Assembly (NCBI RefSeq): GCF_024721315.2
Contig: NZ_JANFAK020000004.1
Coordinates: 1 to 64,000, forward strand
DNA from: Streptomyces sp. Isolate_45
GTDB taxonomy: Bacteria > Actinomycetota > Actinomycetes > Streptomycetales > Streptomycetaceae
Direction: 5' to 3'
DNA: 64,000 bases
Part shown: in pieces, positions 88 to 41,984 of the stretch
Position numbering within the stretch: position 1 is the first letter of the stretch
Layout of the letters: each line of letters begins with the position of its first letter
Notes under the pieces: generated by a model
Told to the model about the DNA's origin: nothing
Databases searched by the model: none
What the model saw: only the letters and a program-made list of their open reading frames with translations
Program-made: the position numbers and the translations under genes

Positions 88-894
88 TCAGTCGATCCGA
101 ACGACCTGGAAGGCCTCGGCCATGCGCCCCGCGGGCAGCCCGGCCGAGCGCGCGTGGTCACCGAGCCAGCTCCGCAACAGCCCCGCCAGGTCGTCGAAGT
201 GCGCGGTCTGCGAGGTGTGGATGCGCAGGGCCTCCACCTTGCGGTCGAAGACGGGAGTGACGTCGACGTAGCGGTTCGGCGTGGGACCCGTCATCAGCCA
301 CAGTTCCGGGACGATCCACGGTTCCAGCCCTTCCTCCTTGAGGAGGGACGGATGCGCGAACGGGTTCCGCGCCTCGGGGTAGATCGCCCGCAGGGCGGCG
401 TCGCCCACCGCGCGGTGGTCGGGGTGCAGGTCGGCGATCCGCCCCCAGTTGATCTCGGGGCTCGGTATGACGGCGCGCTGCGGGCGGACCTGCCGGATCA
501 CCCGGCACAGGTCGCGGCGCAGCTCCAGGTTCGATTCGACGTAGCTGTCGGGATAGCCGAGGAAGCGGACGTCGTCGACGCCGCTGCGCTTGGCCGAGTG
601 GACCTGCTCGGCGCGCCGGAGGTCGCCCATGGCCTGGCGCGGGAGCTGCTCGTCGTATCCGCCGGCGCCACCGTCGGTGACGATGCAGTACGTCACCCGG
701 GTGGTGCCCTGCGCGATCCACCGCATGACCGTCCCGCTGACGCAGAACTCGATGTCGTCCGGGTGCGCGGCCACGACCAGCAGGGATTCCGGTGCGCTCA
801 GGTCTGTGCGATCGGTCGCGAAGTGTTCCATGGGATCAGCGTGTTGGGCGCGGACCTGGGCCGCAAGGCGGGCCCTCTGGCGTACTCGCGACAT
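88..894 (-). CDS. PIG-L / LmbE-family zinc deacetylase
   Basis: A 268-residue protein of the PIG-L/LmbE fold, which includes MshB and hydrolyses N-acetyl groups on amino sugars in a Zn-dependent way. The metal-binding signature AHPDD is at about residues 43-47 and HPDH at about 157-160. The ATG at 894 was chosen because longer in-frame starts add only Arg/Pro-rich low-complexity sequence. The gene is divergent from a MetRS-like gene, and an MshA-like glycosyltransferase follows that. This context suggests it deacetylates a GlcNAc-inositol-like pseudodisaccharide. The family call is firm; the substrate is inferred. Confidence 0.88.
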   Translation of the reverse strand: MSRVRQRARLAAQVRAQHADPMEHFATDRTDLSAPESLLVVAAHPDDIEFCVSGTVMRWIAQGTTRVTYCIVTDGGAGGYDEQLPRQAMGDLRRAEQVHSAKRSGVDDVRFLGYPDSYVESNLELRRDLCRVIRQVRPQRAVIPSPEINWGRIADLHPDHRAVGDAALRAIYPEARNPFAHPSLLKEEGLEPWIVPELWLMTGPTPNRYVDVTPVFDRKVEALRIHTSQTAHFDDLAGLLRSWLGDHARSAGLPAGRMAEAFQVVRID

Positions 895-1019
895 GACATC
901 TCTACGCCACCGCGCAGCCCGGAGGCCCCACCGGGCCGTCCGGGGGAGGGGTCGTGGCGGCCCGGGCCCTCCTGGCGTTTCCACGCATGGCGTGAACGCG
1001 CAAGCGTTAATCAGACCGC

Positions 1020-1048
1020 TTGGTTCGTTTCTCTGTCACGCTTTGTAT
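1020..1048 (+). promoter_or_regulatory. Candidate promoter for the MetRS-like gene
   Basis: In the divergent region 895-1155, TTGGTT (1020-1025) is followed after 17 bases by TTGTAT (1043-1048). This is a modest match to the -35/-10 consensus, about 110 bases upstream of the ATG at 1156. Confidence 0.3.
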
Positions 1049-1155
1049 GGGCACCCCGCTCTCCCCGGGCCCTCCCGCGGCGTGCGGGGCGGGCCTCCGC
1101 CCCTTCCGTTCCGAGCCTCGCTGCGTACTTCGCACCACAGCGTCAAGGAGGTCCC

Positions 1156-2730
1156 ATGAGCACCCCCGTATGGATCACCGCGACCCCACCGGCCACCCAC
1201 GGCGAACTTCACGTCGGCCATCTCGCAGGACCGTACGTCGCCGCGGATGTGCTGTCCCGGTACCTGCGGGCCGAGGGCGAGCCCGTCCTGTTCACCACCG
1301 GTACCGCCGACCACACCAGTTCCGTCCACGTCCGCGCGCTCCGCGCCGGCCGCAAGCCGGAGGAGGTCGCCGAGGGTTACCGCGAGGCGATCACGGCCGA
1401 CTGGCTGCGCTCGGGCGTCGAGTTCGACCACATCGTGCGCCCCCGCCAGGACAAGGGCTACGGGCGCTGGTTGGCGAACCTGTTCCGGCGGCTCCACGCG
1501 GAGGGCGTCATCGCCGCCCGCACCCGCCTGACACCGTACTGCGAACCCTGCGGGCGCTGGCTCCACGGAGCGCACGTCACCGGCTCCTGCCCGCACTGCT
1601 CCGCCCCCAGCGACGGCGGCATGTGCCACGAGTGCGCCCGCCCCAACGACGGCGGCGACCTGCTGGATCCGCAGTGCGTCCAGTGCGGGTCCCCGGCCAC
1701 GCCCCGGCGCTGCCGCCGCCTCTACATCCCCCTGGAACCGCACCGCGAGGCCCTCGCCGCCTACTGGGCCGCCACCGGCCTCCCACCGCGCCTGGCCGCC
1801 CTGTGCGAGTCCCTTGCCGAGGACGGCCTGCCCGACGTCGCAGTGTCCCACCCCGCCGGGTGGGGGCTGCCCGTACCGGTCGAGGGTTTCCCCGAGCACC
1901 GTATCGACGGCTGCTTCGAGGCAGCCGCGATGCACCTCTTCGGGCACGGCGACCGGCCGCTGCCCGAACGGGCCATTCACTTCTGCGGCTTCGGCCACGC
2001 CTTTTGTCACGCGGTCCTGCTGCCCGTCCTCCTGTTCGCCCAAGGGGTCGAGCTGCCGCAGCGGTTCTGCGTCAACGAGGCGTACGTCATCGACGACCAG
2101 GCACTGTCCTGGGGGGCCGGGGAGAAGGCCTGGGCGCTGGACCTGATCACCGAGTACGGTTCGGACACCCTGCGCCGGCACGTCCTCCAGGCGCGCCCCG
2201 TGGCCGCCCGCACCGCGTTCCACACCGACCGGCTGGCAGCCGCCCGCCGCGAACTGGACGAGAGCTGGAACAACTGGCTGTCGCGCCTGTTCGCCGCGGT
2301 GAGGGAGGAGTGCGCCGGCCTGGTTCCGCCCGCGCTGCCCGGCGGCGCCGGCTGGGACGTACTGGAACGGCGGCTGCTGCGCGGGGTGGAGGACCTGCGC
2401 GAGGCCTACTCACCCGAGGCGTTCGACCCCCGCAGGGCGATGGCCCTGCTCGACGAGATGGTCCGGTCGGCCTCCGACTTCGGCCACGTCAACGCGCACG
2501 AGGCCCACCGACCCACCGCGGGACGCCGACACCTGCCCGTCCTCGCGGCCCAACTGGCCGTGGCCCGCGCACTCGGCGCCTGGGCACGGCCGGTCATGCC
2601 CGAGGGCGCGGACCGACTGGCCGCCGCGCTCGGGGTCGAACCGGGCGGTCCGGTCTCCGCCGCCGTGCTCGCCCCGCCCGCACCGGGCACCAGGCTGGCA
2701 CCGCCCTCGGGACCGGTGTTCGGCTTCTGA
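1156..2730 (+). CDS. Methionyl-tRNA synthetase-like class I ligase, degenerate KMSKS
   Basis: A 524-residue paralogue of MetRS. The HIGH-type motif is HVGH at residues 19-22. A double zinc-knuckle insertion has Cys pairs at 129/132, 145/148, 157/160 and 174/177, as in MetRS. A short helical C-terminal domain resembles the anticodon-binding domain. Where KMSKS is expected (about 315-320) the sequence reads QALSWG, so the ATP-handling loop is not canonical. AGGAG lies just before the ATG at 1156. It sits between a deacetylase and an MshA-like glycosyltransferase. In mycothiol synthesis the equivalent step uses MshC, a CysRS paralogue, so an amino-acid:amino-sugar ligase is a plausible role. A secondary MetRS (for example a resistance copy) is the alternative, but the missing KMSKS argues against normal charging. 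Confidence 0.85.
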   Translation: MSTPVWITATPPATHGELHVGHLAGPYVAADVLSRYLRAEGEPVLFTTGTADHTSSVHVRALRAGRKPEEVAEGYREAITADWLRSGVEFDHIVRPRQDKGYGRWLANLFRRLHAEGVIAARTRLTPYCEPCGRWLHGAHVTGSCPHCSAPSDGGMCHECARPNDGGDLLDPQCVQCGSPATPRRCRRLYIPLEPHREALAAYWAATGLPPRLAALCESLAEDGLPDVAVSHPAGWGLPVPVEGFPEHRIDGCFEAAAMHLFGHGDRPLPERAIHFCGFGHAFCHAVLLPVLLFAQGVELPQRFCVNEAYVIDDQALSWGAGEKAWALDLITEYGSDTLRRHVLQARPVAARTAFHTDRLAAARRELDESWNNWLSRLFAAVREECAGLVPPALPGGAGWDVLERRLLRGVEDLREAYSPEAFDPRRAMALLDEMVRSASDFGHVNAHEAHRPTAGRRHLPVLAAQLAVARALGAWARPVMPEGADRLAAALGVEPGGPVSAAVLAPPAPGTRLAPPSGPVFGF

Positions 2731-2861
2731 CCGGGCCGCGGACCCCCACCCCGCGAACGGCAACATGGTACGACGACACCATCCCCCTCTTCGCCGCGTG
2801 AACCCGCGCCGGTCACACGGCGGTACGGGGCACACGAGGCCCCTGCCCGTAGGAGCTCCAC

Positions 2862-4196
2862 GTGTCCCTGCGCGTCGCCATGCTCAGCGTCCACACCTCG
2901 CCGCTGCACCAGCCCGGCACCGGGGACGCGGGCGGCATGAACGTCTACATGGTCCAGCTCTCCCGCGCACTCGCCGAACTGGGCGTCGAAGTCGACCTGT
3001 TCACCCGCTGTCGGGGTGAGGCCAGGCCGCGGTGGGCCGACCTCGGCCCCGGCATACGGCTGCGCCACCTGGAGGCCGGTCCGCGCGCCCCCCTGCCCAA
3101 GGAGGACATGCCCGCCCTGGTGGTGCCGTTCTCGCTGGCGCTGCTCAAGGAGGAACGGCGCTACGACCTGGTCCACTCCCACTACTGGCTGTCCGGGCAG
3201 GCCGGCCGCATCGCGGCCGTCGGCTGGCGCGTGCCGCTGGTGCACACCGCCCACACCCTGGCCCGCGTGAAGAACGCCGCGCTCGCGGACGGCGACACCC
3301 CGGAGCCGCCCTCGCGGATCCGCGGCGAACACCAGGTGGTCGGCTCCGCCGACCGGCTGATCGCCAACAGCGGTGACGAGGCGAGGGCGTTGCGGGAACT
3401 GTACGGAGCGGACGCCGGCCGGACGGAGATCGTCCGGCCAGGCGTCGACCTGCGTACGTTCGTTCCCGGCCGCGGACGGGCCGCGGCGCGGGCCGCACTC
3501 GGGCTTCCGGTCGACGCGTTCGTACCCCTCTACGCCGGCCGCATCCAGCCCCTCAAAGGACCGGACGTGATGGTGCGGGCCGTCGCCGAACTGCTGAGGG
3601 AGGCTCCGGAACTGCGTCGGCGGACCATCGTCCCCGTCGTCGGCGGGAACTCGGGGGCCGGTCCGCGCGGCGACGCCTGGGAACTGGCAAGGGAGTTGGG
3701 GGTGTCGGACGTACTGCGCCACTTCCCGCCCGTGCCGCCGGCCGAGCTGGCCCGGTGGTACCGGGCGGCGGACGTCCTCATGGTCCCCTCGCGCAGCGAG
3801 TCCTTCGGACTGGTGGCCCTGGAGGCGCAGGCGTGCGGGACCCCCGTACTGGCCTCGGCCGTCGGTGGACTGCCGACCGCCGTGCGGGACGGCCTGACGG
3901 GCATGCTCGTCCACGGCAACGACCCGGTGGAGTACGCCCGGTGGTTGCGCTGGTTCGCGGAACACCCGCAGGCGGGCGCCGTCATGGGCAGAGCGGCGGT
4001 CGGACACGCCCGATCCATGAGTTGGCAGACCGCGGCCGCCCGGACCCTGGACGTCTACCGGGACGTACTGTGCGCGGAACGGTCGGGACCCGGAATGAAT
4101 GAGGCAGGAGCGACGGCACGCTCCTGCCTCGCCGACGCCTCTCTCCTGGAGGGTCGAGAAGGTCGGAATTCCACCCTAGCAGCTCTTTTGAGCTGA
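2862..4196 (+). CDS. MshA-like GT4 glycosyltransferase
   Basis: A 444-residue GT-B glycosyltransferase closely resembling MshA, which joins UDP-GlcNAc to inositol-3-phosphate as the first step of mycothiol synthesis. Seen near the N-terminus is HQPGTGDAGGMNVY, then VHSHYWLSGQ, the sugar-nucleotide site SRSESFGLVALEAQACGTP and a GT4 E-x7-E arrangement. The GTG start at 2862 has AGGAG six bases upstream. The last ~40 residues run through a perfect hairpin (4101-4130) and look unlike MshA, so the native stop may have been lost. It is probably a paralogue, because the enzyme sits in an accessory cluster. The family is firm; the product is inferred. Confidence 0.88.
   Translation: MSLRVAMLSVHTSPLHQPGTGDAGGMNVYMVQLSRALAELGVEVDLFTRCRGEARPRWADLGPGIRLRHLEAGPRAPLPKEDMPALVVPFSLALLKEERRYDLVHSHYWLSGQAGRIAAVGWRVPLVHTAHTLARVKNAALADGDTPEPPSRIRGEHQVVGSADRLIANSGDEARALRELYGADAGRTEIVRPGVDLRTFVPGRGRAAARAALGLPVDAFVPLYAGRIQPLKGPDVMVRAVAELLREAPELRRRTIVPVVGGNSGAGPRGDAWELARELGVSDVLRHFPPVPPAELARWYRAADVLMVPSRSESFGLVALEAQACGTPVLASAVGGLPTAVRDGLTGMLVHGNDPVEYARWLRWFAEHPQAGAVMGRAAVGHARSMSWQTAAARTLDVYRDVLCAERSGPGMNEAGATARSCLADASLLEGREGRNSTLAALLS
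4101..4130 (+). terminator. Perfect 12-bp hairpin inside the 3' end of the glycosyltransferase
   Basis: GAGGCAGGAGCG (4101-4112) and CGCTCCTGCCTC (4119-4130) form a perfect 12-bp stem with a 6-base loop. The structure looks like a terminator but lies within the reading frame ending at 4196. A TGA in the +1 frame lies immediately before it, fitting a shifted native stop. Confidence 0.55.
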
Positions 4197-4439: not shown

Positions 4440-4559
4440 ATGTCGGCAGCGCACACCACCGCACTCCGCGCGAACGCCCGCCACGCCGCCCCCGCCCATC
4501 GGGCCTGTACCGCCGCCGCCCGGCCGGCGGCCCGGTCGAACGGCAACGGCTGGGACTGA
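4440..4559 (+). CDS. 39-residue small peptide ending in NGNGWD
   Basis: A short ATG frame preceded by an excellent ribosome site (GGAGGAATC, then ATG) and followed 24 bases later by a strong terminator. The peptide is basic and Ala/His/Arg-rich, has one Cys (residue 23) and ends in NGNGWD. It has no obvious signal sequence. It lies downstream of the MshA-like gene and converges with a LuxR/TrmB-like regulator. Possible roles are a signalling peptide, a modified-peptide precursor or a small regulator; none is shown by the sequence. The translation signals are strong evidence that it is made. Confidence 0.6.
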   Translation: MSAAHTTALRANARHAAPAHRACTAAARPAARSNGNGWD

Positions 4560-4700: not shown

Positions 4701-5753
4701 TCAATCAAGCCATCCGAGCCGCTGTGCCCGTACCCCGGCCTCGAAACGGCTCGACGCCCCCATTTCCTGCATCAACTCGGACAGCATGCGGCTCACCGTC
4801 CGCAGGGAAACCCCCAGGTTCCGGGCGACCTTCTCGTCCTTCATTCCCGAGGCGAGCATCTTGAGCGCGGCCCGCTGCTGCTCGGACAGCCCGTCGCCGC
4901 CGAGTTCCGGTGCGACGTCGTCCCCGTACGGTGTCGCCGCGTGCCAACAGTGCTCGTACAGCGCCAGGTAGGAGCGGACCAGGGCGGGGCCGCGGGCGAG
5001 GATCGCGCCGGCCGACCGGTCGTCGGGGTGTACGGGCAGTACGGCGAACTGCTGGTCCGCGATGATCATGTTCATCGGGGCGGCGGGGGACAGTCGGATC
5101 TCGACCCCGGCCTCGACCCGGCGGCGCAGCATCTCCACCGCCTCCGGCGAGGTGGTGATCCGCTGGTGGTAGATGGCGCGGATGCGCACCCCGTTGTCGA
5201 TCTGCCTGCGGTCCCGGCTGAGCACCCGGTCGGCGACCTCCCGCACCAGGGCCGTCACGTGCATGGAGGTCAGGTCGTGGCGGATGACGTCCGTGATGTC
5301 CTCCAGCACCTGCTGGATCCGTCCGTAGTCGTCGATGATCTCGACCTCGACCTCGGAACCGCTCAGCGAACCGGGGCGCAGGAACTTCCCGACCAACGTC
5401 TCCAGGGCGCTGTACGTCCGGTCGGACTCGTCCAGGTGCTCGCGCAGCCGCTCGCGTTCGCGTTGCAGCATCCGCAACAGGGCGATCTCCGGGTCGACCA
5501 CGGCCACCGCGTCCGGCCCGGGTTGCCAGGCCCCCGACTGGAGGTCGGCGCGGGTGGCGTGGGTGATGCCCGTCGGCACGATGAGGCCGAGGGTGATCAG
5601 CTCCGCGCGCCACCGTTCCCGCTCCTCGGGGGCCAGTCCGAGCTCCGCGAAGACGTCGTTGAGGTTGGACACCCCGCGCAGGCGCAGCTGCTGATAGAGG
5701 GCCAGCACCCTGTCGGCCGACTGGACGCCGTCCCTGCCATCGCCCGTTGCCAT
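4701..5753 (-). CDS. LuxR-type HTH regulator with TrmB-like N-terminal domain
   Basis: A 350-residue transcriptional regulator. Residues ~10-65 resemble a winged-helix TrmB-like domain. A central ~200-residue region contains a ligand- or PLD-like segment. The C-terminal ~60 residues form a LuxR HTH (LASGMKDEKVARNLGVSLRT). The ATG at 5753 is preceded by GAGGGG and, further up, a TAAGAT -10-like box. A Crp-type palindrome lies at 5838-5853. The gene converges with the 39-aa peptide gene, so the peptide or the mycothiol-like product may be its effector; this is inference. Confidence 0.82.
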   Translation of the reverse strand: MATGDGRDGVQSADRVLALYQQLRLRGVSNLNDVFAELGLAPEERERWRAELITLGLIVPTGITHATRADLQSGAWQPGPDAVAVVDPEIALLRMLQRERERLREHLDESDRTYSALETLVGKFLRPGSLSGSEVEVEIIDDYGRIQQVLEDITDVIRHDLTSMHVTALVREVADRVLSRDRRQIDNGVRIRAIYHQRITTSPEAVEMLRRRVEAGVEIRLSPAAPMNMIIADQQFAVLPVHPDDRSAGAILARGPALVRSYLALYEHCWHAATPYGDDVAPELGGDGLSEQQRAALKMLASGMKDEKVARNLGVSLRTVSRMLSELMQEMGASSRFEAGVRAQRLGWLD

Positions 5754-23269: not shown

Positions 23270-24115
23270 CTATGAGACTCGTTGCCAGGGCAGTCGGGTC
23301 AAGGGGCCGTCGGTTGAATGCATCAGGTTGGTGAAGTGATCGACGAGATTGGCGACGGCGCGTGGGTCGCGGATGACAGCACCTACCTCCAAGTTGTCGC
23401 TGTATGCGTTGTCAGTGAGGTTGGCGCTGCCGAGTAGGGCGATGCTCCGGTCGGCGGCGATAATCTTGGCGTGCATGCTGCCGTATCGGCCGCCAGGCCC
23501 GTGCCGCTCGTCGTTCGCCCACTGCCACAGGCGTACGTCTGGGAGGAAGCGCAGTTCGTAGAATGCGGTACGCCCGTCGCAGTCTCCGTGCAGTCGGCCG
23601 CCGGAAGCGCGGGCGGTCTCCAGGACCAGATCCACCCTTACGCCTCGGTCTGCGGCTGCCCTGATCTCGCTGACGATCTGCTGGATGCCGAACGCGGCGT
23701 AGCTGGTGACCAGGAGCGTGGCGTTGGCGGCCCGGATTACCTGGATTGCGACGGATGCGGTGAGCCTGACCGACACTGCGTCGCTCACTGGTCCCGAGAC
23801 GGCGATCTCGACGTGATGGGTAGCGAGATCCTGCTCGTATCGGTTGCGGGCGGCTTCGAGGGCCAGGGCCAGGGCACATCCCGGCAGTTGTGGATCGGTG
23901 GACCGCCATGCGGACAGCAGCAGGCCGGCGCGTGGCCCGAGACCTACGCCCGGGTGTGCTGCGACGAGGCGGGATTCCGTGCGCCCGTCAGGGCCGTGCA
24001 CCGTTCGCAGGACGTTGATCCAGGCGGCGAGGTGCGTTGAGGGGAGAGTGGCGACGAGGCCGGAGAGTACTTCGGGCAGGCTGGGCGCAGCTTCGGAGGC
24101 GCTGTGGCCGTTCAT
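23270..24115 (-). CDS. drmC: DISARM DrmC, phospholipase D-like protein
   Basis: A 281-residue single-HKD PLD-superfamily protein. The catalytic motif reads SMHAKIIAADRSIALLGSAN (about 210-229). DrmC is the PLD-domain component of DISARM; published work found it not always needed for protection. Its ATG overlaps the drmB stop (ATGA), so it is the last gene of the operon. Confidence 0.92.
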   Translation of the reverse strand: MNGHSASEAAPSLPEVLSGLVATLPSTHLAAWINVLRTVHGPDGRTESRLVAAHPGVGLGPRAGLLLSAWRSTDPQLPGCALALALEAARNRYEQDLATHHVEIAVSGPVSDAVSVRLTASVAIQVIRAANATLLVTSYAAFGIQQIVSEIRAAADRGVRVDLVLETARASGGRLHGDCDGRTAFYELRFLPDVRLWQWANDERHGPGGRYGSMHAKIIAADRSIALLGSANLTDNAYSDNLEVGAVIRDPRAVANLVDHFTNLMHSTDGPLTRLPWQRVS

Positions 24116-25983
24116 GCCGTGAAGAACCCGCCCGGTCGGCCGCTGAACGTTTCTACGAGCAGTTCGCGATCGAGGAAGTGGTTGCCCCGTTCACAGGACG
24201 TTTCCGCCGCGAACAGACAGGCGTGACAGGCAGCACCGTGCAGGCGACCGTGGGCGACCGGGTCATGGTCGGCGCACAGTGGATCCGAGCCGCACAGCCG
24301 CGCAGCCTCGAGCGCTTGGTCGATCAAGGCACCAAGTCTGAGCTGTCCGCCGAGGTTGACCAGCCCGCCGAGGGTGCCCTCGCTGTCGGGGGCTGCGGTG
24401 TACAGCAAGATCCCGGCCATTGAATCTGAACCTGAGCGCGCGTAGATCCGCTCGCCGATTCCGGAGGCGCCGTACCCGCACTCAAGGGCGAACTCTCGAA
24501 TCAGGACGTGGGAGAAGGTGTGCAGCAACACATAGCGGATGCCTGGCCACTCCGCGGCGGTGCGGCGCTGGGTGCACCACTTCTCGTGTGCCTTCCTCAG
24601 CGTTCTGGTTCGGCGGATGACGTTCGGGTCCTGTTCCCAGGCGCTGATCCGCTTCTCGTCGAAGCGGAGGAATATCCCCTCGCCGCGGGTTTCCGCGCAG
24701 GGCAGCCAAATCGGCGCCGAGCTGGAGAGGGGCGCACGGTTCTCCTCCAGGGCCTCGCCTCCGCTGGTTGCGGAGCCCCATTCCGGCGCATCGATCCGAC
24801 TGAATCCGTATAGCGCGGACACTTCGCGCAAGCGCTTGACCAGACGCACCTGGCCGAGCCAGTCACGGTGTGCGGCTGGGACGGGCTCGTTGCTGACGCT
24901 GAAGTCAGGGTGGTTCTGCGGGCTGCCGATGAAGGCAAGCCACTCCGGTCCGGCGATGTCCAGTGCGTCGGTGTCTTCGGCGGCGCCGGCTTGGTTCTCT
25001 CCCTGGTGTCGCGAGATCGCGTCCAATACCTCGTCCGGGCCGAAGCGTTCGAGCTGTGGCCACATCACCTGGGTGGGCAGGACCAGGCGCGCGGTCTCGC
25101 GGGGGAGCTGTGCCACCACCCGGAGCCCGGCCCAGTGTTCGGCCACGGCGCTGTCCACCGGATCGTCGGCGTGCGGGATGGAGAACACCCGCAGCTGCAT
25201 GGCGAACCAGCCGTTCGTCGCACCCAGTGCCATGGTCCGGGTCTGTTCGGTGCAGGTTTCGAAGGTTCCCAAGTGCGGGTGCCGGCCCCGACAGGCCGGG
25301 AGTACCTGCTCACTGCGGGTGCCGATCGCCTCGGCCATGGACCGGGCGTTCACCTCGCAGGAGCATTCGACGAAGATGTTCGCCGCCTCGCCGGTGGTAC
25401 CGCGCTCGACGAGCTTCAGTGTGTGATCCGTGCCGTACGGTGCGCCCCGGTGGACGAAGTACATCCACGGGAAGTCGTCCACGTGTCCGGCTGGGCAGGC
25501 AGAGACGAACCTGGCCGGCACAGCGGTCGGCCGTTTGCGGCCGGTCTCGCGGCAGGAGTGGACGAAGCGGGTCTGGTCGGGTGCCACGCTGTTGGGCAGC
25601 AGGTGGAAGAGCCCGGAATCGGCCGGGGCGAGCCGGTTGCACCGGGTGTCGGTGCAGCGCAGCCAGCCAGGGAACACCGCGACCGGCACACCGATCCGGG
25701 ACCAGGCGCCGGTGAAGTCGTTCGGGTCCTCCGGCGTGTACGGCGGCATCCGCAGATGCTGCACCTGGGCGCCGAGCTTGCTGCGCACCGCCGCAAGGAG
25801 CCGCTCCTCCGGCACGATCGCGGCCTTCTCCAGCTCCCACTCATCGAGTCCGAGGATCATCACCGAGAGGTTCGGGAGGTCCGCGACCGCGCCAACACCG
25901 TAGGTGTGCAGGAGTTGGCTGGGCCTCAGCTCTCCGACCCGCAGGTTGCTCGCTGAGCGTGCACCGTCTGCAGTGATGGTCAT
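24112..25983 (-). CDS. drmB: DISARM DrmB (DUF1998)
   Basis: A 623-residue protein with the DUF1998 core (HTFSHVLIREFALECGYGAS) and several Cys pairs, for example CTDTRC near 150 and CLFAAETSC near the C-terminus, suggesting zinc binding. With DrmA it forms the core DISARM complex that recognises incoming DNA. Its start overlaps the drmA stop (ATGA). Confidence 0.93.
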   Translation of the reverse strand: MTITADGARSASNLRVGELRPSQLLHTYGVGAVADLPNLSVMILGLDEWELEKAAIVPEERLLAAVRSKLGAQVQHLRMPPYTPEDPNDFTGAWSRIGVPVAVFPGWLRCTDTRCNRLAPADSGLFHLLPNSVAPDQTRFVHSCRETGRKRPTAVPARFVSACPAGHVDDFPWMYFVHRGAPYGTDHTLKLVERGTTGEAANIFVECSCEVNARSMAEAIGTRSEQVLPACRGRHPHLGTFETCTEQTRTMALGATNGWFAMQLRVFSIPHADDPVDSAVAEHWAGLRVVAQLPRETARLVLPTQVMWPQLERFGPDEVLDAISRHQGENQAGAAEDTDALDIAGPEWLAFIGSPQNHPDFSVSNEPVPAAHRDWLGQVRLVKRLREVSALYGFSRIDAPEWGSATSGGEALEENRAPLSSSAPIWLPCAETRGEGIFLRFDEKRISAWEQDPNVIRRTRTLRKAHEKWCTQRRTAAEWPGIRYVLLHTFSHVLIREFALECGYGASGIGERIYARSGSDSMAGILLYTAAPDSEGTLGGLVNLGGQLRLGALIDQALEAARLCGSDPLCADHDPVAHGRLHGAACHACLFAAETSCERGNHFLDRELLVETFSGRPGGFFTA

Positions 25984-28900
25984 GAGTGGTCCCCTTCGTT
26001 TCCGGCGCCGTTGGCGTCCGGGTTCGGGCGCGGGAGGAACGGGTGCTGCTCGTGGTCGTCGGCGTTACCCGGAGCGGTCCGCAGCACCAGTCGGATACCC
26101 GGCTCGACTTCGCGCAGGGAGGTCGGACAGGTTGTGCGCTTCCAGGGGCCGGAATCCGGACTGTGGAGCAGGCCGACGATGTCGTCGGCCTTGCCCTTCG
26201 CGTCGAAGGCGAGTCGGGCAGCGGGGCGGCGCTGTTCGCGCGCCCACAGGTCCAGAATGCTGTCCAGCTCCTCGCGTACCCGCGTTGCGACGGCCCGGTC
26301 CGTGGCAACTTCGCCGGCGCGGCGTTCCAGGTACCGGACGATGTGGTCGGCCTTGCTGCTGTGCGTATCGAAGGTCTGCGCGCCGAGGTTGCCGTTGTCG
26401 CCGGCCTCCAGGTTGCGGGCCAGCGCCACGAGCACCCCGGTCAGGCCCCGGTCTATGGCGCGTTCCGCGAACGGGGTGACCGAGAGCGCTTCGACGTGCC
26501 GGTACACGGTGGCGTGGAAGTACTCGAAGGTCTCGTAGTGGGACAGGTCGCGTGGGCGGGCCCAGTTGAACACGGTGAAGACGAGGCCGGGTGCGGCGCG
26601 GCCGACGCGGCTGGTCGCCTGGATGTACTCGGCGGTGGATTTGGGCTGGTTGGCGACGACCATGACGCCGAGCCGGGAGACGTCGACTCCGACGGCGATC
26701 ATGTTGGTGGCCAGGAGCACGTCGATCGGTGTCAGCTTGTTCGCCCGGGGGAAGGTGTACTCCAGCTGCTGGAGGATGTCGGGGATCTTCTCCGAGGTCA
26801 GGCGCGAGGTGAGCTCCTCAAGCCGCAGGTCGTAGCGCCTCGACAGGCCGCGTTCGTTGATCCGCTCCAGTCGGGTGGAGACATCGTCCTCGACCGACAG
26901 ACGCATGCCGCCTAGATCGCGCAGGCTGTTGAAGTAGCCGACGAGGGTCATGTAGGGATCCGTCACCGGATTGTGCCCGTACTTCTTGTGCACGGTCTGC
27001 GCGGCGGCGAGCACCGCGACGTACACCCGGATCATCGTGGACTTCGTGCGCACGCCCTGCGCGCAGATCCCGATGTAGCGGCGACCGGGATGTGAGTCCG
27101 TGGGCCGCTGTCTGGCGAAAAAGCTGTCCCCGATTTCCAGTCCCTGTGGCGGGAAGACCTCGGTGCGCCGGTCGAAGAGGGCATGAATCTGCCGCTCGGC
27201 GCGCCGCACGGTGGCCGTCGAGGCGATCACCTTCGGCCGCGCCGTCCTGCCCGGTGCGTATTCCCACGTGGCAAGGCGGTCCACTGCGGCCTCGTACAAG
27301 CCGGTCAGCGAGCCGAGTGGACCGGAGATCAGGTGGAGTTCGTCCTGCACGATCAGGTCCGGGGGACGCACCGGCTTGGCCGCGGTGAGCGTCGCAGCAG
27401 GATGGCGTCCTTCCGCGAGGTGGCTGCTGGCTTCCCAGTCCTCCTCGGCGATCTGGGCGGTGACGTAGCCGTGTCGGGAGCAGTACCGGGAGGCACGTCC
27501 GAACAGGGCTTGGGTGCGCCCGTTCCAGGTGAGCTGTGCGAACTTGTCGACGGTCGCGATCACCAGGCTCGGCAGCAGTCGGTAGATCTCCTCGTCGACG
27601 ACGACCACCGGCAGGCCCTCACGGTTCGGGTCGCCGCCGCCGAAGGGGCAGCCGAACAGCTCGGGACAGCGCAGGAAGGTCCGGCGAAGAGTCTTGTCGA
27701 CCTCGATGTCCCGGCCCTTCTCGATCTTCGTTCCGCACCACGGGCAACTGGTGAGCTGGTAGGGGGTGCCGGAGTTCTGATGGGGCTTCCCGCTCGCCCG
27801 GCGGACGTCCTTGACCCAGTCGACGGCCTTGTCGGTCGTGTTCGGGGACACCTTCCCCCCGACCCACAGGCCGATCCGGAACGGTTCTGCACCCCACCGC
27901 GCCTCGTCGGCACGGCGCAGGACCTCGCACGCGCAGATCAGTGCGGTGGCACGTTGGAACTGTTGGATCGTCAGCAGCCTCAGGGTGTAGCGCATCAGTA
28001 CGGCGACCCCATGGCCTGCGTCGAGGCCGCCGAGGTCCGGTCGCAGCCGGCGGATGGCGAGGGTGTAGGAGGTCAGGCCGAGGTACGCCTCGGTCTTGCC
28101 GCCACCGGTGGGGAACCAGAGCAGGTCCGCCACCGCATCGGCTCCCGTGGCACGCTCCGGATGCGCGGGATCGGTCAGTGCGGGAAGGTTCAGCAACAGG
28201 AACGCGAGCTGGAAGGGGCGCCAGGAGCGGTTGGCCGGTTTGTCCTCGTCGCGGAACACTGCGTTGAGGTCACGGGATCCGTCGCGGCGTCGGGCGGCGG
28301 CGACCCGTGTGTGGACACGCTGCAGGTGCATCGCGCTGTTCGCAAAGCGGAAGGCGGCCAGGGCGTCCGGGTCACCGAGCACCAGCTCGATGCCCGCTTC
28401 GATCCGGTCGGCCGCCCGCTTGGCTTCGTTCAGTGCCTCCTCGGCCTGGTCTGCGTACTCGTCGAGATACTGACCGTCCTGCCCGATCCGTGCCTCGGCC
28501 CGCTCGATCCACGCCCGGTATCCGGCCACGAGCGGAATCAGCCCCGCCCGCAGTCGTTGCGGCTCGCACGCGCCGAGTTCCTTCATGTCGACCAACAGGT
28601 CCACCAGCTCCGGGAGGTCCGGATCGCTGTCGAACGACGGCGCGTCGGTCTGCGCGATGTCGTACTCCGGCGCCGCCTTCGTACATACCGAGACCGCTCT
28701 CATCGGGTCGGCGTCACTGGCCGTAGCGCTCACCCCGGTCGCGTGCCCCACCGCGAACTCAGGGCTGAACCGGTACGCCATCGCCAACCGTCGCTGCTCG
28801 CCCTGGTCAACGGCATCGCCACCGGATCCTGGCTCGTGCCGGGGCAGGAACACCGCCGCGCCGTCCGCGCCGTCCGCCGACAGCTCGGCCTGGAAAACCC

Positions 28901-29507
28901 AGTGCAGGGCGGAGTTGGAGTCGGTCTCGGTGGTGTTGACCAGGAACAGGGTGACCAGCCAGTCGTTGTGGAAGCGCCGCACGCGGCCGCGCAGCACCAC
29001 CTTCTCGTCCTCGGAGTCGAGCACCAGAGCCTCGACCTGGCCCTCGACCAGCTTGACCGGAACGCAGCCGGTGTGGGGCGTGCGCCGCCAGATCAGCTTC
29101 TCGATGCTCGGATCCGTCGAGTGCGAGCGGACGTAACGCGCCCACCGCCCGGTCACCTCCAGCCGGTCGGCATCACCGCGCACCCGCGCGGTGAACCCGA
29201 CCGACGACGGGGCCAGACTCGGCACGTTCGGCGCGTCCGCGTCCGGCGAGCCCTCATCGGCGCCGGGCAGCTCGCTGTCGCCGAGCGAGGCGTCTATCTC
29301 CTCGGGCACGATCGTCGTGCCGTTCGGGGCGAGGCGGCCGAGCACGTACCAGTCGGTCGGGGAGTCAGCGACCTCCTCCTGGTCGCCGCCCACCGGTCCG
29401 AGCAGGTCCAGCACCACGAGCTCGGCCAGCTCGTCACGTATCGAGCCTGGGGACGGAACAGCCAGCACCGGGCTGTTCGATGTCGCGGGCGGCAACTTAT
29501 CGCTCAT
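25980..29507 (-). CDS. drmA: DISARM DrmA, large SF2 helicase
   Basis: A ~1,175-residue helicase. Walker A is FPTGGGKTEAYLGL (about 460). The Walker B is DELH in LIVQDELHLISGPLG. The C-terminal helicase domain includes GVDVSRLGVMVVANQPKSTA and IQATSRVGRAAPG. The family companion of DrmB. The ATG at 29507 was chosen, but a GTG 8 codons upstream is possible; neither has a clear ribosome site. It lies 90 bases after drmMI. Confidence 0.93.
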   Translation of the reverse strand: MSDKLPPATSNSPVLAVPSPGSIRDELAELVVLDLLGPVGGDQEEVADSPTDWYVLGRLAPNGTTIVPEEIDASLGDSELPGADEGSPDADAPNVPSLAPSSVGFTARVRGDADRLEVTGRWARYVRSHSTDPSIEKLIWRRTPHTGCVPVKLVEGQVEALVLDSEDEKVVLRGRVRRFHNDWLVTLFLVNTTETDSNSALHWVFQAELSADGADGAAVFLPRHEPGSGGDAVDQGEQRRLAMAYRFSPEFAVGHATGVSATASDADPMRAVSVCTKAAPEYDIAQTDAPSFDSDPDLPELVDLLVDMKELGACEPQRLRAGLIPLVAGYRAWIERAEARIGQDGQYLDEYADQAEEALNEAKRAADRIEAGIELVLGDPDALAAFRFANSAMHLQRVHTRVAAARRRDGSRDLNAVFRDEDKPANRSWRPFQLAFLLLNLPALTDPAHPERATGADAVADLLWFPTGGGKTEAYLGLTSYTLAIRRLRPDLGGLDAGHGVAVLMRYTLRLLTIQQFQRATALICACEVLRRADEARWGAEPFRIGLWVGGKVSPNTTDKAVDWVKDVRRASGKPHQNSGTPYQLTSCPWCGTKIEKGRDIEVDKTLRRTFLRCPELFGCPFGGGDPNREGLPVVVVDEEIYRLLPSLVIATVDKFAQLTWNGRTQALFGRASRYCSRHGYVTAQIAEEDWEASSHLAEGRHPAATLTAAKPVRPPDLIVQDELHLISGPLGSLTGLYEAAVDRLATWEYAPGRTARPKVIASTATVRRAERQIHALFDRRTEVFPPQGLEIGDSFFARQRPTDSHPGRRYIGICAQGVRTKSTMIRVYVAVLAAAQTVHKKYGHNPVTDPYMTLVGYFNSLRDLGGMRLSVEDDVSTRLERINERGLSRRYDLRLEELTSRLTSEKIPDILQQLEYTFPRANKLTPIDVLLATNMIAVGVDVSRLGVMVVANQPKSTAEYIQATSRVGRAAPGLVFTVFNWARPRDLSHYETFEYFHATVYRHVEALSVTPFAERAIDRGLTGVLVALARNLEAGDNGNLGAQTFDTHSSKADHIVRYLERRAGEVATDRAVATRVREELDSILDLWAREQRRPAARLAFDAKGKADDIVGLLHSPDSGPWKRTTCPTSLREVEPGIRLVLRTAPGNADDHEQHPFLPRPNPDANGAGNEGDHS

Positions 29508-29597
29508 GGTCACAACGATAGGACGAGTCACTGACAGCGCGGCGCAACGCAGCCGCGAGCTTGTGCCACACGTGGGCTCCGGCGCTGGAAGGCCCCC

Positions 29598-32500
29598 CTA
29601 CCAGAGCCCATCGCCGGGATCCGGGGTCGCTGCGGGGGCAACGGTCTTCCTGGCCTTGGCGGAGCCCTTCTTGCTGTGGAGGCCGCGGCGGACCTCGTCT
29701 TCGTACAGGGCATGGTTGAGTTCGAGGAGACGGTCGTTCATCTCGATCTGGACATCCGGGTCGACGGTCCAGCGCAGGCCATGGACCGGCTCGTGGAATC
29801 CATGGTTCAGCACGAGCGGCGTCCAGCCGAAGTGCGCCGCGAGGGGGTGGGCGAGGTAGGACTCAGTGACGGCCTCGTCGATCTCGACATGGATCTCGCG
29901 CAGGCGCTGGATATCGGCGTCGAGGTTCGCCGGGTTGTGGACCTCGTTATAGAGGTCGGTCATGCCGAGCTGCGGGGTCCGCGATAGCTGGACATGGCGA
30001 CGGTAGGTGTCCAGCTCCTCGCCGGCGGCACGGATGCGCCGCGTGAGTTCCGGCTGTGGGAACGTGTCGAAGCCATCGGAGGGAGTGTAGCGAAGCCTCG
30101 TCTCCAGGGTCGACTCGCCCTTGACGGTCCACCAGTTGAAATGCCATGCGCTCGTCAGAAGGGCGAGCATTGCCGTCACGTCGGGTTTGTAGAAGACGCA
30201 CAAGGCATGCGAGAAGACTTGATTGTTGGGCACGATGACCGGCAGTCCATATTTGCTGTGCAGGCCAATCACGAGAATGCGGTCATGGTCGGCGATTGCC
30301 TTACGGAGCTCGGGGCGTGGTCGATGAAATCTCCACCATGCTGGCCTATCAGGGCGGCCGAATTCTTCGATTCTTGCGATCAGGTCGGGAAAGTGTTGTG
30401 CGCTTTCAAGGTCCATCATCCCGAAATCAATCACCCATCGGATGGCCGAGGAGTCTGCCCGATTGTTGATCTCGTCAGCGTTGAGGAGCGGAAAGATTCT
30501 ATCTTTATTCCGCTCGTTCAATGAGAGCAGAGACTGCATGCTGCTTGCGTTGAGGATGAATCCTTCCCCTGTCACCTGACAGCCAACCGAGGCTTGGCCA
30601 ACGCATGCAGCCAGCTTCTTTGGGCCCCCAGTTGTTCGCGATGATGCGGTCAAGCTTGACGAAATGTCATGGGTGGTTTTTCCCTCGAGGATGGGCTTTT
30701 CGGCGGATCCAAGAATTCCAACCCATACCAATGACACGTACACGCCGGCTTCCCCCGGCCATGCCATGGACTTGACAGCGCGACCGATTTTCCAATCCTC
30801 GGTGAGGATTCGGTCTAGGCCCACTTCGCGGGAGTCGGTTTGCGCAATGGTATTTGTTGCGATGATGCCAGTTCTCCCATTGATGGCAAGTTTCAGATTG
30901 CGCAATAGGAAGTATGTGCAGAGGTCTGCCCGACCGCCAGACCCGTGGCCCTGGGCAATTACCTGGCTGATGTAGTTCAAGCTGTCTTTGCCAATGCGTG
31001 CGCTGGTCTGAACGCCGCCCGAGAACGGAGGGTTCCCCACCACGGCATCGAAGCGATGGTCGCCACGAGCAAGGTCAGCGACAATCTCGGGGAACTCAAG
31101 CGGCCAGTGCAGTGGACGCAGCGGGGCCGTGCGCGGTCCGCCGCTGGGGCCCAGGAGCCAGCCGTCGACGATATTGCGGGCTTCGGCCGCCGCGGCTTTG
31201 TCTCCCTGCAGTGCCTGTTCGACGAGGTCGGCGATGGACGTGAGGCGGTTGTCGTAGGCGTCATCGGACTTGGTCGTCGCGGTGGACAGTCTCGCCGCGA
31301 CCACGGCGTCCGCTGCGAGGCGGAGCTGTTCGGTCAGCGCTTCGGCCTCGACCAGCTTCGCGGCCTTCGCCCGAGCGTCTCGTATGTCCGTGACCTCGTG
31401 TTGCTCGATGTCGCGGCGCAGCTCCGCGGCTCGGGCCAACAGCGGGCCAGTGATCTTGTCGATTTCGCCGCTGAGACGGGCGTTGAGACGATGACCTTTA
31501 CTCGGGGTGAGGTGGAAGGCTTCGATCTGGTCCGCCGTCAAGCAGCCGATGAGGGAGTCGCCGCAGCGCAGGGCGTGGTCGACGAAGTTGAACGGACGGC
31601 CCTTCGCCAGGGTGACCAACCACAGCGAGAGCTTGGCGAGCTCCACCGCCATCTCGTCGATGTCGACGCCATAGAGGCAACGGTCGGCGACCATGCGACG
31701 TGCTTCGAGGAGCTGCGCATCTCGGTCTTCGCGATGCTCGCCGAGACGCGCAGCGACCGTGTCCGGCAGCCCATCGCGGTCCCACGCCTCCACGACCCGC
31801 TCCGACAAGTACCGGCACGCCGAGACCAGGAACGCGCCAGAGCCCATCGCGGGGTCCAGGACCTTGAGCGCCAGGAGTTCTGATGCCGGACGCACCTGCC
31901 ATTCGGGCGGCTGGCTCCCATCGGCGGGTCGCGGAACACCCTCCGGGGAGCCGGGTGAGAAGCAGAGTGGGTCAAGGGTGTGTAGGACGATCTCTTCGGC
32001 GAGCACGCGCGGTGTGTAATGCGTGCCGGAGTCGCGCCGGTCGCCGACCTGGGTGACGATGACCGTCCCGGCAGGGTGGACAACCGGCTCGTTGCGCAGG
32101 TCGGAGCGCAGCAGGCCGTAGAACGGCCGCACTCGGTCGGCGAGCTCGGGATCGTTATCGCAGGCTGCGTCGAGGGTACCGATCTGTGAGCCGGTCGGCT
32201 CGGTCGCGATTGCGGCGGTGAACTGCTTCGCCGTCAGGCCGGCGAGCTTGACGGTCTTGGCTTGGAGGTGACCCGCCGCGCTCCACTCTTCGAGGTCAGC
32301 CAGTTTGACGTCGGCACCAGACTTGCCCTTGAGCCCGAGGCGTGGCTCGTCGAGCCGAATGGCGGAGTGTTCGAGCAAACCCTCGTAGACATGGCCGATC
32401 TGCTCGACGTCGAGGCCCTTGTAGGACAGGCGTTCCGTCGAAGTGACCTTGCCTGCCGGCGTGGTGCGCTTGAGTTTGACCAGTGCGTCGAGCATGGCGA

Positions 32501-33665
32501 AGACGACACGGTCGGTGACCTTCAGGCGTTCTAGCCAGGCAAACCGCTTCGGGTCGAACAGGGACCCGCCGTATGCGGGGATCCACATGTCCGGGTGCCG
32601 GGCCCCGCCGTGGATGGCTCGGAAGGTGGCGAGCAGCGTGGGCCAGGCAGCCTTCCAGCGGTCGGCGATGTCGGCGTCGTCCTGATCGAGGCGGTCGTAG
32701 AGCTTCGTGACCGAGTACGAGTCTGCGTACAGCTCGTCGTCGGCCGGCAGCAGGCCCTGTTCCTCCGCGTAGAGGAGGAACACGATCCGCATCATGACGG
32801 TCAGCGCAGCGCGGTAGACGGTCCGCGGCGCGACGCCTTCCAGCACGACGCCGTCGGCCTCACGGTCGAGGCGGGAGAGCTCCGCGACAAGGAGTTCGAC
32901 GGCCGCGCGGACCTGCTTGCCGAGGGTCTTGGTGACAGCGGTCGTGTCGTCGGCCGTGCGGGTGAAAAGTGCGGCGAGGGAGTCGGTGTCCTTGCTCTCG
33001 CTGTCCTTGGGCGCGATCGCGGCGCAGCGGACACCGAGCAGGGAGGTGAAGGCGCGCAGCAGCAGCGGTTCCTCGAACCAGGCGTCGGCATCGAAGACAG
33101 CCACCGAGGTCGGTGCTTGGGGCCGGGCGTGGACAAGGACCCACAGGGTGCCGTTGGTGAGCAGTGCGAGTGGGACGGCACGGCGTCGGCACAGCTCGGC
33201 GGCCTGCTCGGCCGCCGACGGCAAGCCCTTCATGGCGCGGGTGAGGGGTTCGCCCCAGGGGCGTCGGTAGATGAGTGCGCGTTCGGCCACGCCGGGCAGG
33301 CCGCTGGTCGGGTCAGGAGGGCCCATGAGCAGTGCATCGGGGGCTGTGCCGGGGAGGTCGGTCAGTTCTCGGGGCAGCATCGAGCCTTGGCGCAGTGCCT
33401 GGCCCTGGTAGCCGAGCAGTTCTTCCAGGACCAGGTGCTGCCAGGCGCTGCACAGCGTCGCCGGTTCGGCCTGCAGTTCGGCCCATGCCTGCCGGAGGCG
33501 GCCGCGCAGTGGAGTGTCAACAACGTCAAGGCCCTGCGGGAATGCGTCGGCGAGGATCTTCGCGGTGAGGAACGGTCCGTCCGGACGCAGCAGGTTGAGC
33601 CACTCGGCGTGCTGCTCGATCGGGGTCTGCTGCTCGGCTTTCGGGGAACGGGTGCGCGTTGGCAT
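29598..33665 (-). CDS. drmMI: DISARM DrmMI, N6-adenine methyltransferase
   Basis: A 1,355-residue adenine-specific DNA methyltransferase of the PglX/type IIG-like group. Motif I is DPAMGSGAFLVSACRYL (about 605), and the catalytic motif IV is NPPF in VVGNPPFSGG (about 880). In class 1 DISARM it marks host DNA as self. The stretch after NPPF (about 30,150-31,000 on the DNA), which should hold the target-recognition domain, is clearly less GC-rich than the rest, as if exchanged. Its start and the drmD stop share one base. Confidence 0.93.
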   Translation of the reverse strand: MPTRTRSPKAEQQTPIEQHAEWLNLLRPDGPFLTAKILADAFPQGLDVVDTPLRGRLRQAWAELQAEPATLCSAWQHLVLEELLGYQGQALRQGSMLPRELTDLPGTAPDALLMGPPDPTSGLPGVAERALIYRRPWGEPLTRAMKGLPSAAEQAAELCRRRAVPLALLTNGTLWVLVHARPQAPTSVAVFDADAWFEEPLLLRAFTSLLGVRCAAIAPKDSESKDTDSLAALFTRTADDTTAVTKTLGKQVRAAVELLVAELSRLDREADGVVLEGVAPRTVYRAALTVMMRIVFLLYAEEQGLLPADDELYADSYSVTKLYDRLDQDDADIADRWKAAWPTLLATFRAIHGGARHPDMWIPAYGGSLFDPKRFAWLERLKVTDRVVFAMLDALVKLKRTTPAGKVTSTERLSYKGLDVEQIGHVYEGLLEHSAIRLDEPRLGLKGKSGADVKLADLEEWSAAGHLQAKTVKLAGLTAKQFTAAIATEPTGSQIGTLDAACDNDPELADRVRPFYGLLRSDLRNEPVVHPAGTVIVTQVGDRRDSGTHYTPRVLAEEIVLHTLDPLCFSPGSPEGVPRPADGSQPPEWQVRPASELLALKVLDPAMGSGAFLVSACRYLSERVVEAWDRDGLPDTVAARLGEHREDRDAQLLEARRMVADRCLYGVDIDEMAVELAKLSLWLVTLAKGRPFNFVDHALRCGDSLIGCLTADQIEAFHLTPSKGHRLNARLSGEIDKITGPLLARAAELRRDIEQHEVTDIRDARAKAAKLVEAEALTEQLRLAADAVVAARLSTATTKSDDAYDNRLTSIADLVEQALQGDKAAAAEARNIVDGWLLGPSGGPRTAPLRPLHWPLEFPEIVADLARGDHRFDAVVGNPPFSGGVQTSARIGKDSLNYISQVIAQGHGSGGRADLCTYFLLRNLKLAINGRTGIIATNTIAQTDSREVGLDRILTEDWKIGRAVKSMAWPGEAGVYVSLVWVGILGSAEKPILEGKTTHDISSSLTASSRTTGGPKKLAACVGQASVGCQVTGEGFILNASSMQSLLSLNERNKDRIFPLLNADEINNRADSSAIRWVIDFGMMDLESAQHFPDLIARIEEFGRPDRPAWWRFHRPRPELRKAIADHDRILVIGLHSKYGLPVIVPNNQVFSHALCVFYKPDVTAMLALLTSAWHFNWWTVKGESTLETRLRYTPSDGFDTFPQPELTRRIRAAGEELDTYRRHVQLSRTPQLGMTDLYNEVHNPANLDADIQRLREIHVEIDEAVTESYLAHPLAAHFGWTPLVLNHGFHEPVHGLRWTVDPDVQIEMNDRLLELNHALYEDEVRRGLHSKKGSAKARKTVAPAATPDPGDGLW

Positions 33666-36600: not shown

Positions 36601-36937
36601 TTGCCACCGAGCCCCAGCGCACAGCGTCAAGGAAGGCATCCAACTTCGCCGGGTCATCGAACCCGCTCACCGGAGACGGCAAGGCGTGTTGCTCACGGGC
36701 GGTAGCACCAGGCTCCAGCTCCCACAGGACGCGCAACTCCTCGTCACCGGAGTCGCCATCCACCGAAACCAGGGAAACCAGGTGCTGGGCCTCGGCAAAC
36801 AGTGGACTGCCCGGCTCCTCGACCGTGATCGAGGAGCGCTCCACGGCAGTGGCTACCCAATTCCGATTACGTACCGTAACCAGTTGGCCGACGGTTGGCA
36901 CCGCTTCGTCCGCCTCGTCGACCTCTTCGATACCCAC
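33665..36937 (-). CDS. drmD: DISARM DrmD, SNF2-type helicase
   Basis: A ~1,090-residue SNF2/SF2 helicase. Walker A is DDVGLGKTIEAGL (about 150). Walker B is DEVH in DLLVVDEVHTCAPSG. Motif VI is NGRVDRHGQ, preceded by DSASEGINLQ. drmD marks the class 1 DISARM type. It is the first gene of the coupled operon drmD-drmMI-drmA-drmB-drmC. The GTG at 36937, nine bases after GGGAG, is preferred over TTG at 36946. Confidence 0.92.
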   Translation of the reverse strand: MGIEEVDEADEAVPTVGQLVTVRNRNWVATAVERSSITVEEPGSPLFAEAQHLVSLVSVDGDSGDEELRVLWELEPGATAREQHALPSPVSGFDDPAKLDAFLDAVRWGSVATADKTLLQAPFRSGVKPEDYQLDPVVRALQMPRTNLLIADDVGLGKTIEAGLVMQELMLRHRARTMLIVCPASLTLQWRDEMRDKFGLGFKIVDAELLKELRRSRGLYANPWTHYPRLIVSIDWLKRERPMALLRSILPPAPQYPRAFDLLVVDEVHTCAPSGSGKYAVDSQRTDAIKTLAPHSEHRLFLSATPHNGYLESFTALLALLDGHRFARTLEPSEEAKAQVMVRRLKRDLPPNWDGSPRFPERDLDHPLEVVYDAPTRDAYAKLDLYAQSRRETISGQLTLQGTAPSRAADFVVTLLKRRFLSSPKAFANTVDTHLKTMLARGSRNEAEREYDRGAYTVAEKVLAKMIGQLDESAEDDAAFAETAQEALATVRRFAPPLTPAEQKLLEDLRDWGDRNSEKSDGKFTAFLGWLRAIVQRNGTDGMSGSWDGDRVIVFTEYRDTQRWLHERLISAGVPNEAIAQLYGGQDRDERERVKNVFQDDPDVDPVRILLATDSASEGINLQNHCHRVLHWEIPWNPNRLEQRNGRVDRHGQTAAKVEIVHFVPQGWDRKREEDTGFTEGTLEDAMAFLGVAVRKVEQIRTDLGSAGEVIASQVEQKMLGKRSSWQTTDREIQRLAGKAVLKIERNLAHDLQQAQEQLTRTRTELNLNPETIERVVRTALRLAHKKDLIETPSPKGVKARCFRLPELKEGWAQARNDGLRHPVSGKERPVTFDQDYAGRTDVVLLHLNHRLVDLCLRLLRAELWSEDEHGAHLTRVTARIVPGDLLRNPAVIAHGRVVLTGNRGVRLHEQIALAGGSIEHGKLVVEKNPETLEHWLAAASQDAPPPEFLDRLTALWGVLEPPLGKALQTESNKIARKQRKVLDKRCEEDVKAMQSVLTELERNIRDSLNSNPLWRQDSLLAPDPERDQLKKDRTELEARLAAVPEQLVSEAAALRHRYADPVARRFPVAVTFLVPASLTVAAPSHQEGH

Positions 36938-41896: not shown

Positions 41897-41984
41897 GGTC
41901 TCCCGATCGTCGTACGGCCGCGGGTGGTCCGCTGGCCAGCCTAGTGACGTGTTCGGGGTCGGCCCGACTGCGCCACGGGTGGTG

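Follow-up and report, generated by a model that had tools for sequence, protein, structure and literature searches.

Two described systems come closest to the genes reported here. In hydrazine synthetases a domain related to methionyl-tRNA synthetase (MetRS) adenylates an amino acid, the rearrangement falls to a cupin domain, and albofungin has a known AsnB-like hydrazine transferase, as set out in excerpts of two reports (PMC11705231; PMC10445470); within an excerpt of the first, clusters of this kind include stand-alone MetRS-like forms and AsnB-like partners (PMC11705231). In mycothiol biosynthesis, according to part of one study (PMC9736012), cysteine is held in the ligase MshC by a zinc coordinated by C43, C231 and H256, and the enzyme makes use of its KMSKS motif. 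We describe a gene trio related to both, found at the start of a contig (NZ_JANFAK020000004.1, here C353) of Streptomyces sp. Isolate_45, whose assembly comprises 9.07 Mb in 408 contigs; the window analysed is the first 64,000 nucleotides of this contig. The trio encodes a PIG-L (LmbE-like) protein, a MetRS-like protein and a paralogue of MshA, of the UDP-GlcNAc:inositol-phosphate transferase family. The locus is best read as a reduced version of a locus for specialised metabolism in Streptomyces, one that uses the mycothiol scaffold. The explanation that we favour, tentatively and from residue and neighborhood patterns, is a pathway on that scaffold to an undescribed product, with a repurposed and probably non-adenylating MetRS-like protein.

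The initial annotation proposed adjacent MshA-like, deacetylase-family and class I synthetase genes, and these are indeed three intact open reading frames (ORFs): PIG-L at 88-831 on the minus strand, MetRS-like (524 residues) at 1156-2730 on the plus strand, and MshA-like at 2862-4196, also plus. The divergent PIG-L and MetRS-like genes are 324 bp apart, and 131 bp separate the MetRS-like and MshA-like genes. Genes were called with an in-house codon-score script. Orthologue loci came from a single pattern scan of genome contigs with the window MetRS-like protein, which is biased to close relatives and yielded 40 loci, 39 from Streptomyces and one from Microtetraspora. Linkage was recounted by tblastn at the 36 loci whose flanks reach at least 4 kb on each side, five of 41 (L001, L007, L013, L034 and the window) being excluded for short flanks.

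The common gene order is PIG-L (reverse), AsnB, PrpF-like, short-chain dehydrogenase/reductase (SDR), MetRS-like, MshA-like, a small peptide gene, and a LuxR-type regulator gene (reverse). The regulator is found at all 36 loci, MshA-like at 33, and PIG-L, AsnB, PrpF and SDR at 31 each (a 32nd PIG-L gene, in L028, is truncated at the edge of its locus); the whole trio is present at 31 and all six genes (trio plus AsnB, PrpF and SDR) at 30. At most loci the MshA-like gene adjoins the MetRS-like gene and runs in the same direction. The trio is thus a conserved unit linked beyond chance, and it recurs in other Streptomyces, excluding the outcome, named as refuting in the initial annotation, that its genes do not co-occur elsewhere. 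AsnB, PrpF and SDR are missing from the window strain, from S. lavendulae (L002) and from a third genome (G038, locus L089), so the product of these strains may be simpler, or the copy may be in the course of loss. A MetRS-like match at E <= 1e-60 was found in 24 of 199 sampled Streptomyces genomes, 11 of them with at least 65% identity, and in one of 396 genomes of a phylum sample, which was the strain's own. Our literature searches for the gene set found no paper describing it. PADLOC gave no match for the PIG-L, MetRS-like, MshA-like, AsnB-like or PrpF-like proteins and only weak matches to the C-terminal region of the LuxR-type protein; a defence role for the cluster is rejected on this basis.

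The MetRS-like protein shares with housekeeping MetRS the fold, the HxGH motif, zinc knuckles and a helical C-terminal region, yet falls far below MetRS model cut-offs (180.3 versus 336.35 bits for metG), and its pocket and KMSKS motif are altered. Among solved sequences 9l8v and 9vq4 come closest to it (E about 3e-70), and its best structural match is again 9l8v (Z 29.7 over 310 residues, root-mean-square deviation 2.5; runner-up Z 23.8), the C-terminal domain of PyrN with bound glutamyl-sulfamoyl-adenosine. In a tree of 26 rows whose far branch is a canonical MetRS (L094), the window-type proteins and a diverged copy, L079, join three MetRS-like proteins that stand alone in split hydrazine-synthetase clusters, with 100/100 support, and this clade nests among other hydrazine-synthetase-type proteins. 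Hydrazine synthetases (PyrN, Spb40, Tri28 and the split Afn8/Afn9) are thereby the nearest relatives in sequence, structure and tree, and judged from these comparisons the protein is a descendant of their MetRS-like half. Direct descent from the housekeeping enzyme is ruled out by the tree; a canonical MetRS is encoded separately in the genome. The derivation from MetRS given in the initial annotation gives way to the grouping with hydrazine-synthetase domains and PyrN as closest solved relative. A plasmid record, NBC_01483 (48% match), contains a split hydrazine-synthetase cluster with an interrupted MetRS-like frame.

Stand-alone MetRS-like forms, AsnB-like partners (in the excerpt of PMC11705231) and a related SDR also liken these loci to hydrazine-synthetase clusters, whereas the partner enzymes of N-N bond formation are not found beside them. 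After removal of two repeats (L092 duplicates L027, and L114 duplicates L009) the 46 window-type loci represent 44 distinct ones. Four cupin queries matched near the window-type gene at none of the 46 loci, a cupin query matching in 10 of 13 control loci, and three N-hydroxylating monooxygenase queries matched at none of the 46 and in 12 of the 13; no flavin-oxidase match was found near any of the 46 either. The controls are the loci called hydrazine-synthetase-type, each having a cupin or N-hydroxylase match; L076 and L078 have a separate cupin by Pfam. The strain's own genome encodes a fused cupin-MetRS protein of hydrazine-synthetase type on another contig (L093, G000:C369), with an N-hydroxylase match nearby; a cupin-plus-MetRS fragment of this protein, used as query, did match window-type loci, through the MetRS-like genes themselves.

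The active site was aligned with those of Escherichia coli MetG and PyrN, literature residue numbers being gene numbers minus one. Part of one account (PMC10535265) describes a MetRS model in which Asp52 is the residue that binds the amine, the pocket is lined by a Phe/His pair, and a salt bridge links the lysine of KMSKS to the phosphate. The window protein retains a HIGH-type motif (HVGH, residues 19-22, 1210-1221), as do 43 of 44 orthologue rows at HxGH, the other being DIGH in L035. The absence of KMSKS noted in the initial annotation proved general: the window has ALSWG (2101-2115) where KMSKS or KFSTS is expected, the loop is deleted in most orthologues, and the pattern K[FM]S[TK][SG] occurs in 0/44 orthologue rows as against all 13 hydrazine-synthetase-type proteins, PyrN and canonical MetRS. 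Pocket positions were counted in 43 rows, L040 being removed for a frame shift over residues about 253-285 although its reading stays open (it was among the 25 rows of the structure alignment). The Asp52 position is Ala in all 43, against Asp in 13/13 hydrazine-synthetase-type proteins and Val in PyrN, and the Trp253 position is Cys in all 43 (Cys253 of the window protein, 1912-1914), against Trp in 13/13 and Ala in PyrN. These two changes were dropped as proof of lost activation because PyrN differs at both, and alone they would fit a changed substrate. The Asp296 position is Gly in 41 of 43, Glu in L028 and Asp in L030, and Asp in all 13 hydrazine-synthetase-type proteins and PyrN. Within the HAFCH stretch of the window protein (residues 281-285, 1996-2010), His281 and Cys284 are new and occupy the Ile297 and Phe300 positions in 43/43 rows, while His285, at the His301 position, is ancestral (42/43; Gln in L030).

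Compared with hydrazine synthetases, then, the window-type protein has lost the KMSKS-type motif and the Asp296-type residue and has gained a Cys/His pocket. New Cys253, His281 and Cys284 next to His285 suggest thiol or metal binding. The new residues fall in the two stretches that in E. coli CysRS bear C209 and H234/E238, which we take to be zinc ligands; the exact columns were mismatched in the profile alignment. L079 lacks all three of the new pocket residues as well as the KMSKS-type motif. The ratio of nonsynonymous to synonymous substitution rates (dN/dS) is 0.205 between the window and L002 and 0.05-0.24 in other pairs: purifying selection on the MetRS-like gene continues.

The MshA paralogue passes the MshA equivalog cut-off (TIGR03449, 527.5 versus 462.5 bits), and a canonical MshA elsewhere in the genome scores higher (651.4 bits). 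MshB and MshC are likewise above cut-off elsewhere, so the trio is ruled out as the main mycothiol pathway of the organism. In Corynebacterium glutamicum numbering, K78, Y110, H133, T134, R154, R231 and K236 are retained in 36/36 paralogues and E316 in 35/36, the remaining one having a gap; we take all eight to be substrate-site positions, and their retention makes GlcNAc-inositol-phosphate the likely product. Position 294 differs from C. glutamicum in the paralogue, and equally in the genome's canonical MshA. MshA is above cut-off in 182 of the 199 Streptomyces genomes, and at least two MshA matches at E <= 1e-120 were found in 10 of the 11 genomes whose MetRS-like orthologue is at least 65% identical; two matches are also found in nine sampled genomes that have no cluster orthologue. 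The extra copies from those nine genomes and a third copy from G009 (L096-L105) all adjoin an L-serine ammonia-lyase-like gene (10/10, the lyase family being confirmed for L097). FdhD- or glyA-like genes are also near several of them, and at a guess these copies might be linked to one-carbon or formaldehyde metabolism.

The PIG-L protein (PF02585, 95.7 bits) is a predicted metal-dependent deacetylase or amidase and is not MshB (TIGR03445, 34.2 bits against a cut-off of 224.35). Its nearest solved relative by sequence is LnmX of the leinamycin cluster (105.6 bits), and it is closer to LnmX and BshB2 than to MshB. AHPDD is retained in 35/35 and HPDH in 34/35 cluster members. The likeness to mycothiol biosynthesis seen in the initial annotation is therefore partial: the locus has an MshA paralogue above the family cut-off with its substrate residues, a member of the deacetylase superfamily and a class I synthetase fold, whereas the PIG-L protein is not MshB, the synthetase-like protein is MetRS-like by Pfam and PDB search rather than a CysRS-derived MshC with KMSKS, and the canonical genes lie elsewhere.

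Among the accessory genes, AsnB was assigned by TIGR01536 above cut-off, with the SGGLDSG motif in 32 of 33 (exception L001), PrpF by PF04303, and an SDR was assigned as well. The cluster SDR is about 57% identical to the SDR of two split hydrazine-synthetase clusters. It has Phe at the Tyr position of YxxxK (L003:7232-7969 and orthologues), presumably the expected SDR catalytic pattern, and the SDR of the split clusters has the same substitution.

The most constant neighbor is the LuxR-type regulator, at 4701-5753 on the minus strand in the window, with a weak DUF7436-like middle region. Between it and the MshA-like gene, a small ORF encoding a Trp motif is present at 36 of 41 loci. Most of these ORFs begin like a signal peptide, and some repeat the motif, as DNNWP seven times in L031 (L031:11275-11664). 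The ORF is missing from L026, L027 and L032 and is not visible at the contig ends L001 and L007. In the window it appears as a shortened 39-residue form ending in NGNGWD and lacking the hydrophobic segment (4440-4559, plus strand). Among eight regions of LuxR paralogues in the strain's own genome, chosen blind to peptides, two have an adjoining tandem Trp-repeat peptide: L129 (DSGWN six times, 3725-4060; LuxR 2606-3499) and L133 (DVGWN three times, 1302-1607; LuxR 2043-2705). Two of three peptide matches in cluster-free genomes adjoin a LuxR gene (L111 and L113), and the third, on a 6 kb contig (L112), does not. A wider scan of 121 loci, biased because they were fetched around these genes, gave 18 Trp-motif ORFs, several spurious or repeated. 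Tandem DSGWN, DVGWN, DTGWG, DSGWG and DNNWP motifs all occur beside LuxR genes with the weak DUF7436-like region. The Trp-motif peptides and LuxR-type regulators are candidate peptide-signal/receptor pairs, and may form an unrecognised signalling system; our literature searches for the pairing found no paper describing it.

In the explanation that we favour, the MshA paralogue would make GlcNAc-inositol-phosphate, an unlinked enzyme would dephosphorylate it, and PIG-L would then deacetylate it to GlcN-inositol or act later as an amidase. In full-length clusters AsnB, with its ATP site kept, the PrpF-like protein and SDR may prepare or amidate an acyl unit. The MetRS-like protein would make no aminoacyl-adenylate of its own; its old amino-acid pocket (Cys253, His281, Cys284, His285) might hold a thiol or metal-bound substrate, the protein assisting joining or transfer onto the pseudodisaccharide. 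The locus would be controlled by the LuxR-type regulator, probably with the secreted Trp-motif peptide. The fullest version, joining a second, dedicated GlcN-inositol pathway, a non-adenylating MetRS domain of hydrazine-synthetase type with a new Cys/His pocket, an undescribed mycothiol-like metabolite and control by a secreted Trp-motif repeat peptide and its LuxR-type receptor, is possible but, taken whole, unlikely. Were the favoured explanation true, the mycothiol scaffold would serve an additional pathway in Streptomyces, and in a class I synthetase fold ATP-dependent activation would have given way to other chemistry.

Several observations weigh against this explanation. HxGH is retained, and a protein without KMSKS need not have lost adenylation; L030 retains Asp at the Asp296 position. 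The proposed role in joining or transfer is read from residue patterns. An exact CysRS- or MshC-like zinc site was set aside, as profile alignments did not settle the columns, and the structure model has low confidence by the active site (mean predicted local distance difference test score 61), at residues 12-24 and across the greater part of 309-524. Three of the 36 loci (L026, L027 and L032) have a full-length MetRS-like gene and LuxR without MshA-like or PIG-L, and L019 has MetRS-like with no PIG-L. Between the closest full-cluster pairs dN/dS is lower (0.05-0.12) than between the window and L002, so selection on the window copy, or in the reduced clade, may be mildly relaxed.

The nearest competitor is an MshC analogue with ATP-dependent activation of some other amino acid, which it would attach to GlcN-inositol; we regard this as unlikely. 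The recurrence of MshA-like, deacetylase-family and class I synthetase-type genes and the retained HxGH would suit such an enzyme, as would its kinship with domains that adenylate amino acids (excerpt of PMC11705231) and the sharing of the Asp52 and Trp253 changes with PyrN, solved with a glutamyl-adenylate analogue. PyrN, however, keeps both the KMSKS-type motif, found in 0/44 orthologue rows, and the Asp296-type residue, lost in 42 of 43, and MshC itself retains KMSKS in the part of the study cited (PMC9736012). The proposal of the initial annotation that the ligase simply uses another amino acid, such as methionine or homocysteine, is accordingly a weak one. Less probable again is a role in mycothiol supply or conjugates, in which the MshA paralogue does no more than boost mycothiol, PIG-L is an amidase for mycothiol conjugates of another metabolite and the MetRS-like protein does something unrelated. 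The affinity of PIG-L with LnmX and BshB2, and the existence of MshA paralogues in the ammonia-lyase setting, would fit; the adjacent, co-directional MetRS-like and MshA-like genes of most loci argue otherwise.

The MetRS-like protein might instead serve the LuxR-type system, as a regulator or a binding partner, and be no enzyme of the sugar pathway. The regulator does adjoin its gene in 36/36 loci, even those without MshA-like and PIG-L, and is also beside the diverged copy L079, but HxGH and the conserved Cys/His pocket point to ligand chemistry and the six-gene order is retained at 30/36 loci; we consider this improbable. Continued service in an N-N bond pathway, with cupin and N-hydroxylase encoded elsewhere, is the idea to which we give least credence. 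It draws on the tree grouping, on the SDR shared with split hydrazine-synthetase clusters and on the fused gene and N-hydroxylase on another contig of this genome, against which stand the lost activation residues and the empty cupin and N-hydroxylase searches at all 46 window-type loci.

Other features of the window lie outside the cluster. The contig end at positions 1-72 consists purely of C (72 bases), probably an artefact of assembly. Genes at 23270-36607 match PADLOC models for DISARM-type defence (DrmC, DrmB, DrmA, DrmMI and DrmD). A block at 40838-46696 is possibly a nucleoside-type cluster; it encodes a beta-lactamase-fold protein and a GT4 transferase, and includes a tandem pair of dCTP-deaminase-like genes and an EPSP-synthase/MurA-like gene.

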